The position numbers and the translations under genes are program-made. Of a stretch of DNA of 48,928 bases, positions 46,165 through 48,928 are shown in pieces. The notes below the pieces were generated by a model. The model made no database searches, was not told the DNA's origin, and saw only the letters and a list, made by a program, of their open reading frames with translations. Location of the stretch: positions 1-48,928 of the forward strand of contig CANHIS010000018.1 of the NCBI GenBank assembly GCA_947460255.1, in the 5' to 3' direction. Each line of letters starts with the position of its first letter. The stretch's first letter is position 1. Source of the DNA: Bacteroidota bacterium (GTDB lineage Bacteria; Bacteroidota; Bacteroidia; M30B66).

Positions 46165-46242
46165 CCCCGGACTAAAGTCAGGGGCTGCGGGATATCCGAA
46201 TAATCGTTTGAATCACATGCAGCCTCGGACTTTAGTCCGGGG
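46165..46242. repeat. REP/BIME-like palindrome pair, copy 1
   Basis: Left arm 46165-46188 (CCCCGGACTAAAGTCAGGGG then CTGC) and right arm 46219-46242 (GCAGCCTCGG then ACTTTAGTCCGGGG) in opposite orientation, 30 bp apart. Each arm is itself a palindrome, so the unit can form two small hairpins or one large one. The left arm has a C to A change that breaks one base pair. It fills the gap between the convergent gliding-type gene and dxs and may serve as a terminator. Confidence 0.9.
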
Positions 46243-48189: not shown

Positions 48190-48254
48190 GAAAAAGCAGC
48201 GGTTTAACTTTCTATTAACAATGTAGATTGGGAAATGTTGTTTAACATTCATAC

Positions 48255-48331
48255 CCCCGGACTGAAGTCCGGGGCTGCGAAAGGACAAATGAGCACTAGG
48301 AATTCAAGCAGCCTCGGACTTCAGTCCGGGG
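48255..48331. repeat. REP/BIME-like palindrome pair, copy 2
   Basis: Left arm 48255-48278 (CCCCGGACTGAAGTCCGGGG then CTGC, a perfect palindrome) and inverted right arm 48308-48331 (GCAGCCTCGG then ACTTCAGTCCGGGG), 29 bp apart. The spacer shares ACAAATGA-CA-TAGGAA with copy 3. It sits between dxs and the transposase gene. Confidence 0.92.
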
Positions 48332-48364
48332 ATTTCATATTGGTTGGTGGAAATAAAAAGGGTA

Positions 48365-48417
48365 TGCATCAGGTGCAAAACTTTTGCATTCAACGCAAAT
48401 GATTTGCACCTGATGCA
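48365..48417. repeat. Perfect 15-bp inverted repeat upstream of the transposase gene
   Basis: TGCATCAGGTGCAAA at 48365-48379 is exactly inverted at 48403-48417. The 23 bp between contain a further small stem (TTGC / GCAA). It is unlike the REP palindromes and ends 43 bp before the transposase ATG. It could be an operator, a leader hairpin limiting transposase translation, or a subterminal hairpin bound by the transposase. Confidence 0.8.
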
Positions 48418-48460: not shown

Positions 48461-48832
48461 ATGTCGAAATATATTCATTTGGTCTTCAACACAAAATACC
48501 GACTAAACAATATCTCAGATAGGTTGATAAAATATTTCTACGATTACTTTCAGGAATATCTATCTAAGCAATCGATCCAAATGTTGGCGTGCAATGGCCA
48601 CCAAAACCACATTCATTTGTTGATCAGATTTGAAAAGGATATTGATCTGCCTGCCATCGTAAAAGGACTTAAAGGAGGAGTAGCTAGGCAAATAAACCAA
48701 TCAAGACTTAATGAAGATAAATTTAAATGGGGAGTTGGTTACTTTGCTCAGAGGATAAGAAATGATAGGATTAATCAATTAATACAATACATTGAAAATC
48801 AGAAAGAACATCATTCAGGCCCCCCGGACTGA
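48461..48832 (+). CDS. Y1/REP-associated tyrosine transposase, C-terminally truncated
   Basis: Single-strand DNA transposase of the IS200/REP-associated (RAYT) HUH class, 123 residues. The start is typical (IHLVFNTKYRLNN), the metal-binding HUH motif is HIH within NGHQNHIHLLIRF, and the region of the catalytic Tyr is QLIQYIENQKEHH. All active-site elements known for the family are therefore present. Family members normally continue some 25-40 residues after QKEHH; here the frame runs into REP copy 3 and stops at TGA (48830-48832) inside the palindrome, the last residues GPPD being REP-encoded. It is thus probably a truncated gene. It may still bind REP DNA or may be dead. Confidence 0.88.
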   Translation: MSKYIHLVFNTKYRLNNISDRLIKYFYDYFQEYLSKQSIQMLACNGHQNHIHLLIRFEKDIDLPAIVKGLKGGVARQINQSRLNEDKFKWGVGYFAQRIRNDRINQLIQYIENQKEHHSGPPD

Positions 48833-48915
48833 AGTCCGGGGCTGCAGGAGTCCGGGGCTGCAAGAAAACAAATGATCATTAGGAAAAATAAGCAACCTCG
48901 GACTTCAGTCCGGGG
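48822..48915. repeat. REP/BIME-like palindrome pair, copy 3, inserted in the transposase gene end
   Basis: Left arm 48822-48845 (CCCCGGACTGAAGTCCGGGG then CTGC), a 16-bp partial tandem copy, a 30-bp spacer, and an inverted right arm 48892-48915 (GCAACCTCGG then ACTTCAGTCCGGGG). Without the duplication it is 78 bp, the same size as copies 1 and 2. It begins inside the last codons of the transposase. Confidence 0.92.
48833..48864. repeat. 16-bp tandem duplication within REP copy 3
   Basis: AGTCCGGGGCTGCAGG at 48833-48848 is followed directly by AGTCCGGGGCTGCAAG at 48849-48864, 15 of 16 bases equal. It repeats the right half of the left palindrome plus its CTGC tail. Confidence 0.9.
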
Positions 48916-48928
48916 ATAACACCCGCAA

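Follow-up and report, generated by a model that had tools for sequence, protein, structure and literature searches.

IS608 TnpA and E. coli TnpA_REP act on single-strand hairpins, and the RAYTs (class 2) are recognised by the catalytic motif Y---NP. TnpA_Y1 subclass 1.2 has been described from Cyanobacteria and Bacteroidetes, with a Y---Q--HH motif, a median length of 148 aa, a conserved C-terminal domain and REP association given as 'no' (PMC6006769). The gene studied here, tnpA, lies at the end of the window, by which we mean the whole 48,928-nt stretch of a Bacteroidota bacterium that was analysed. Judged by sequence, this tnpA is a TnpA_Y1 gene of subclass 1.2, a truncated relative rather than a full member. 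It is present in single copy between two REPIN-like palindrome doublets, and its tail, stop codon and spacer were probably lost by a deletion reaching a palindrome already resident behind the gene. The features of the locus are as follows, with a strand where one applies.

48461-48814, plus strand: tnpA core, a complete IS200-like HUH/Y1 domain (H50-I-H52, Y110, Q114, HH117-118) according to Pfam, a 120-protein alignment, AlphaFold and Foldseek.
48815-48832, plus strand: palindrome-derived frame end, SGPPD and a TGA in the palindrome centre, in place of the subclass 1.2 tail (sequence, alignment, pLDDT below 50 at residues 119-123).
48822-48841: REP palindrome CCCCGGACT-GA-AGTCCGGGG, purine loop, first arm of the 3' doublet.
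48833-48864: 16-bp tandem duplication, agtccggggctgcagg/agtccggggctgcaag, read from the sequence.
48899-48912: REP palindrome CGGACT-TC-AGTCCG, pyrimidine loop, second arm of the 3' doublet.
48254-48333: 5' REPIN-like doublet upstream of tnpA, with a GA palindrome at 48255-48274 and a TC palindrome at 48315-48328.
46165-46242: third REPIN-like doublet of the same family, directly behind a dxs-like gene.
48365-48417, plus strand: near-perfect inverted repeat in the tnpA leader, single-copy (it matches itself alone), -31.3 kcal/mol, z -8.2.
48840-48928: end of the contig, found in identical form inside contig C45, which continues to the end of an ABC-transporter gene about 32 bp past the palindrome.

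The tnpA frame (48461-48832, plus strand) encodes 123 aa with the C-terminus QYIENQKEHHSGPPD before the stop. The core ends with ...QYIENQKEHH, the HH codons occupying 48809-48814, and the SGPPD codons that follow (48815-48829) overlap the palindrome CCCCGGACTGAAGTCCGGGG (48822-48841), whose innermost stem T and two-base loop GA form the TGA stop at 48830-48832. The coordinates thus confirm the initial annotation, in which the frame enters the palindrome after QYIENQKEHH and stops at a TGA in the loop. That annotation also held that the family is normally longer, and this agrees with the alignment: homology ends at the palindrome, and 25-30 residues of the relatives are missing. After HH the window protein has five residues, unrelated to the family tail, whereas 119 homologues have 14-43 (median about 27) and none of them is as short. 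Their usual tail reads KKxTFxEEYxxFLxxFxIxxxxxYLF (K-K-x-[TS]-F-x-E-E-Y...Y-L-F). On the alignment, tnpA is truncated relative to its own subclass, and the absent part corresponds to the conserved subclass 1.2 C-terminal tail and not to a RAYT tail.

The catalytic core is complete. The window protein matches Pfam Y1_Tnp (PF01797) with 80.8 bits (cut-off 23, 1.1e-22) up to the model end (121/121), and the NCBIfam IS200 model NF033573 with 62.4 bits (cut-off 55). We rejected the reading that the gene is not truncated because Pfam covers it to the end, as the Y1_Tnp model stops before the subclass 1.2 tail. The gene had been called a RAYT; it is not one by its motif, YIENQKEHH (residues 110-118), which is the Y---Q--HH of subclass 1.2, and the REP-associated NCBIfam model NF047646 scores 31.7 bits, below its cut-off of 80. 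The alignment keeps H50, H52, Y110, Q114, H117 and H118; the HUH motif is NHIH (N in 16 of 120 rows) against the usual DH[IV]H, and WG stands where the subclass has WQ. An AlphaFold model built from a three-sequence alignment (pLDDT 85) contains the whole b-a-b-b-a-b-a core, with residues 119-123 alone disordered (pLDDT below 50). Foldseek placed IS608 and ISDra2 TnpA at the top of the matches and the RAYT 4er8 lower in the list, so the fold is predicted to be like that of the ISDra2 and IS608 enzymes.

Outside the catalytic residues, the protein has diverged strongly. Of 120 end branches, its own is the longest (2.72, the median being 0.24; 1.53 in a smaller tree), and it keeps 17 of 25 conserved positions in the alignment, the lowest score, tied with two others; conserved serines 74, 75, 98, 100 and 102 and Q91 are lost. 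The long branch could partly reflect a genuinely separate lineage, and the placement of the protein differs between trees, beside L049 in the smaller one and elsewhere in the larger. Neutral drift at 0.5 substitutions per site keeps the tnpA frame open in 0.3% of simulations; since an open frame is that rare under drift, the gene has probably been under selection for most of its history. The long end branch and the lost conserved residues suggest a weakened or fading enzyme, although none of the catalytic residues is lost in the alignment. On sequence grounds, it is probably a fast-evolving, fading member of a palindrome-flanked arrangement.

The truncated protein might also be a naturally short, functional TnpA, from a lineage that has long been without the tail and functions in the manner of the compact IS200/ISDra2 enzymes. 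ISDra2 TnpA, of 140 aa, and the 137-aa IS605-type enzyme of L041 both end at the corresponding position, and the chemistry as such can therefore do without the tail. The initial annotation suggested that the event would silence or alter further movement, which may or may not follow: the catalytic core is intact, and IS200-type enzymes ending at this point are active, as known for ISDra2. The complete fold predicted for the window protein also fits a short enzyme, as do the frame and catalytic residues kept despite large divergence. However, all 119 subclass 1.2 relatives have at least 14 residues past HH, and the window protein has lost several conserved Ser positions and W-Q. Moreover, E. coli TnpA_REP suffers serious binding and cleavage defects when 21 or 34 C-terminal residues are removed, though removal of 13 raises its activity (PMC8266576). 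The initial annotation had pointed to a subfamily naturally ending here as evidence against a truncation. Such ends do exist in other subclasses (ISDra2, the IS605-type enzyme of L041), but in the alignment the gene's own subclass 1.2 has none, and we regard a natural short form as unlikely.

The palindrome at the end of tnpA is not a chance occurrence but a member of a dispersed family: the 4.13-Mb assembly contains CGGACTNNAGTCCG 35 times and the reversed control 3 times. Four of the 35 sites flank tnpA, forming two doublets (48255-48328 and 48822-48912), and each doublet folds into one long hairpin (-54.2 kcal/mol, z -8.8, for the 5' doublet; -49.7 kcal/mol, z -4.9, for the 3' doublet). From purine to pyrimidine palindrome, the spacing is 57-59 bp centre to centre in four other doublets of this genome; it is 74 bp in the 3' doublet, exactly 58 plus the 16-bp tandem duplication. 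An extra half-palindrome CCCCGGACT beside a full REP, resembling this duplication, was also seen elsewhere in this genome, in L011 (5700-5750), L033 (about 5560), L112 (about 640) and L118 (about 640). The leader repeat at 48365-48417, which follows the 5' doublet and precedes the tnpA start, has 15-bp perfect arms and may be a terminator or an IS200-like leader hairpin. The genome holds three divergent Y1 genes, and this tnpA alone has these palindromes around it.

Palindromes of the same kind surround the genes of many relatives. With stems of 8 bp or more and a T-NN-A centre required, criteria that were fixed after inspection of the data, palindromes flank 44 of 57 genes of clades B, C and D (17/20, 24/32 and 3/5, respectively), and none of the 62 genes of clade T, which has a TYxQLYIQ-type N-terminus, and clade E has one nearby. 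Subclass 1.2 seems to hold two lifestyles, with and without palindromes. Clade support is moderate (SH-aLRT 86-98); on the tree, the palindrome trait requires 12 changes, against 32-43 with shuffled labels. In clades B, C and D, palindrome density reaches 4.4 per kb within 150 bp downstream of the gene and 3.9 upstream, and falls below 0.1 per kb past 750 bp. As in the REPs of the window, the two-base-loop palindromes of these clades are almost all (82/85) centred on T-AA-A, T-TC-A, T-TT-A, T-GA-A or T-TA-A. Their polarity is also constrained: the loop of the nearest upstream palindrome is a pyrimidine in 22 of 26 cases and that of the nearest downstream one a purine in 24 of 28 (p = 3e-7), and the window, with TC upstream and GA downstream, agrees. 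Among adjacent palindrome pairs at the relatives' genes, purine followed by pyrimidine is the commonest order (19/43). On the pyrimidine strand, the relatives have an AT[TA][AG]-like foot and the window GCAG or GCAA, neither being GT[AG]G. The downstream palindrome starts 77-117 nt past HH in 25 of 31 relatives, mostly 18-46 nt past the stop codon; in the window, this distance from HH has shrunk to 7 nt. In relative L200 (950-1000, minus strand), the tnpA stop is the TGA of the T-GA-A centre of the flanking palindrome while the tail is intact, so a stop of this kind alone is no sign of damage.

Other genomes carry the palindromes to different extents. We found 55 sites in the congener G002, 14 in G005 and 3 in G004; REP status is demonstrated for the window genome and is by pattern for these three. 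G002 and G005 are rich in GGACTNNAGTCC palindromes, and no Y1 transposase gene was found next to them: there the palindromes may outlive the enzyme, or the gene may be missing from the draft assembly. When the stems flanking tnpA in two other genomes were sought elsewhere in 400 kb of each, there were no occurrences. The same samples contained 5 and 6 other T-NN-A palindromes, against none in a genome with a clade T enzyme alone; the palindromes of these two genomes may be present in few copies, or may resemble element ends more than a dispersed family.

These comparisons bear on how tnpA came to end in a palindrome, and we infer a deletion rather than an insertion. The 3' doublet stands at the standard place and in the standard polarity while tail, stop and spacer are missing, which makes a deletion of about 70-110 nt the simplest explanation. 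The layout at this locus is a purine-loop and a pyrimidine-loop palindrome, then tnpA, then again a purine-loop and a pyrimidine-loop palindrome, an order that recurs in part of subclass 1.2. A deletion that began behind the HH codons and had its other endpoint at or near the resident 3' palindrome would have removed tail codons, stop and spacer. The frame now stops at the TGA of the T-GA-A centre and specifies a 118-residue catalytic core and five non-native residues. By analogy with IS608 TnpA and E. coli TnpA_REP, the enzyme would act on the palindromes as single-strand hairpins.

The initial annotation had proposed that the palindromic unit inserted into the gene. The frame does pass directly into the palindrome, and in-frame REP insertions inside tnpA_REP genes are documented for subclass 2.4 (PMC6006769); on this view a doublet entered tnpA in its 3' part, and the codons downstream of it were lost later or lie on another contig. 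However, the relatives have a same-polarity palindrome at a near-constant place behind the gene, so self-insertion is not needed, and the window palindrome occupies just this position and polarity. No recent donor is apparent either: the nearest other copy of the 3' doublet is about 84% identical, and thus gives no sign of recent insertion. The missing C-terminal codons, which an insertion should leave beyond the doublet, were not found there. A tail HMM that detected full-length controls found no remnant at the ends of C18 (the window's contig) and C45 or beside the REP sites examined, and the roughly 32 bp between the 3' palindrome and the stop of the convergent ABC gene in C45 leave no room for displaced codons. 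Nor did a search for an intact copy elsewhere in the genome yield a second tnpA; copy number is low, with no near-identical copies. An insertion is accordingly improbable in our judgement.

The window ends with contig C18, and its last 89 bp recur inside C45. The outer 151 bp of C45 are mostly an IS110 element end (Pfam DEDD_Tnp_IS110, Transposase_20), and targeting of REPs by IS110 elements is known (PMC1525189). Here, an IS110-family element sits inside REP palindromes, directly after GGACT, in three contigs: L012 (C116, 1-1460), L009 (C45, 3321-3472) and L026 (C110, 1-155). The occupied palindrome of C45 is the one that ends tnpA, and C18 carries the version without the element; the difference between the two contigs looks like strain mixture. 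The C18-C45 join depends on the 89-bp overlap; the assembly is mixed, and an IS110 element ends at that very palindrome. A chimeric contig end, with the real tnpA continuing into its tail, would fit a window that stops at a contig end within a repeat and the meeting of the C18, C45, C110 and C116 ends at REP palindromes carrying IS110 ends, but it is very unlikely, as no repeat covers the gene/palindrome junction (48814-48822), and a repeat of 25 bp would by itself hardly deceive an assembler that left overlaps of 89-149 bp between its contigs. Likewise, palindrome-mediated misjoining is an unlikely source of the junction, since tnpA already enters the palindrome to the left of the shared stretch.

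For the deletion, the ancestral state had to be drawn from distant homologues, because the scans returned no close relative and no sister strain with an intact tnpA locus. Genome contigs and viral contigs gave one match each (31-35% identity), a plasmid scan gave matches below 33%, and a second viral-contig scan with a clade B protein as query gave none. The best match among 395 genomes of the phylum was about 38% identical, and the best overall about 35-38%.

On its own, a transposase gene worn away where its own palindrome begins is a modest finding. The wider comparison outweighs it: in three clades, about three in four genes are palindrome-flanked, and the palindromes share a fixed polarity, a centre of two bases and a foot other than GTAG. 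As far as these flanking patterns go, clades B, C and D contradict the published absence of REPs from subclass 1.2. The automatic REP search of that study required a GT[AG]G foot and concentrated on TnpA_REP (PMC6006769), which would explain why subclass 1.2 palindromes were missed; in the literature searched, of incomplete coverage, we found no later report of palindromes with this subclass. With about even chances of being right, clades B, C and D can be read as the enzymes of an unrecognised REP/REPIN-type system of Bacteroidota, marked by a T-[AA/GA/TT/TC/TA]-A centre, an AT[TA][AG]-like foot and purine-to-pyrimidine doublets on both sides of tnpA, and overlooked through the GT[AG]G requirement. 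The window would then be a tail-less member, decaying or re-tuned, whose palindromes persist in its genome and in one congener where no matching enzyme was found. If the palindromes are REPs, then not the RAYTs alone but the IS200-like class too gave rise to, or retained, domesticated systems of single-strand transposition. If true, Bacteroidota would offer an independent system for the co-evolution of TnpA and palindromes, and for the fate of palindromes once the enzyme decays.

Compared with subclass 1.2, the locus shares the Y motif YIENQKEHH, an HUH motif (here NHIH), the core length and a low copy number, and the nearest relatives of its TnpA are, judged from one relative, found throughout one phylum, Bacteroidota. 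It differs in lacking the C-terminal domain, in having WG instead of WQ, and in being flanked by dispersed palindromes where the subclass was published without REPs or terminal hairpins (PMC6006769). With the RAYT/TnpA_REP REPtrons (E. coli TnpA_REP, PDB 4er8), it has in common a single-copy Y1 gene of the same fold, flanked by inverted palindrome doublets with relatives scattered through the genome. The Y---NP motif, however, is absent, as is the GTAG/GTGG tag, replaced by GCAG/GCAA here and AT[TA][AG] in the family, and the palindromes are perfect stems with a two-base T-NN-A centre. The IS200/IS605 enzymes (subclass 1.1; IS608, ISDra2) resemble the window TnpA in the Y---Q motif, the core fold and a C-terminus soon after the catalytic helix. 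Unlike them, the window tnpA has no TnpB seen beside it and no identical copies, and its palindromes also occur at unrelated intergenic sites.
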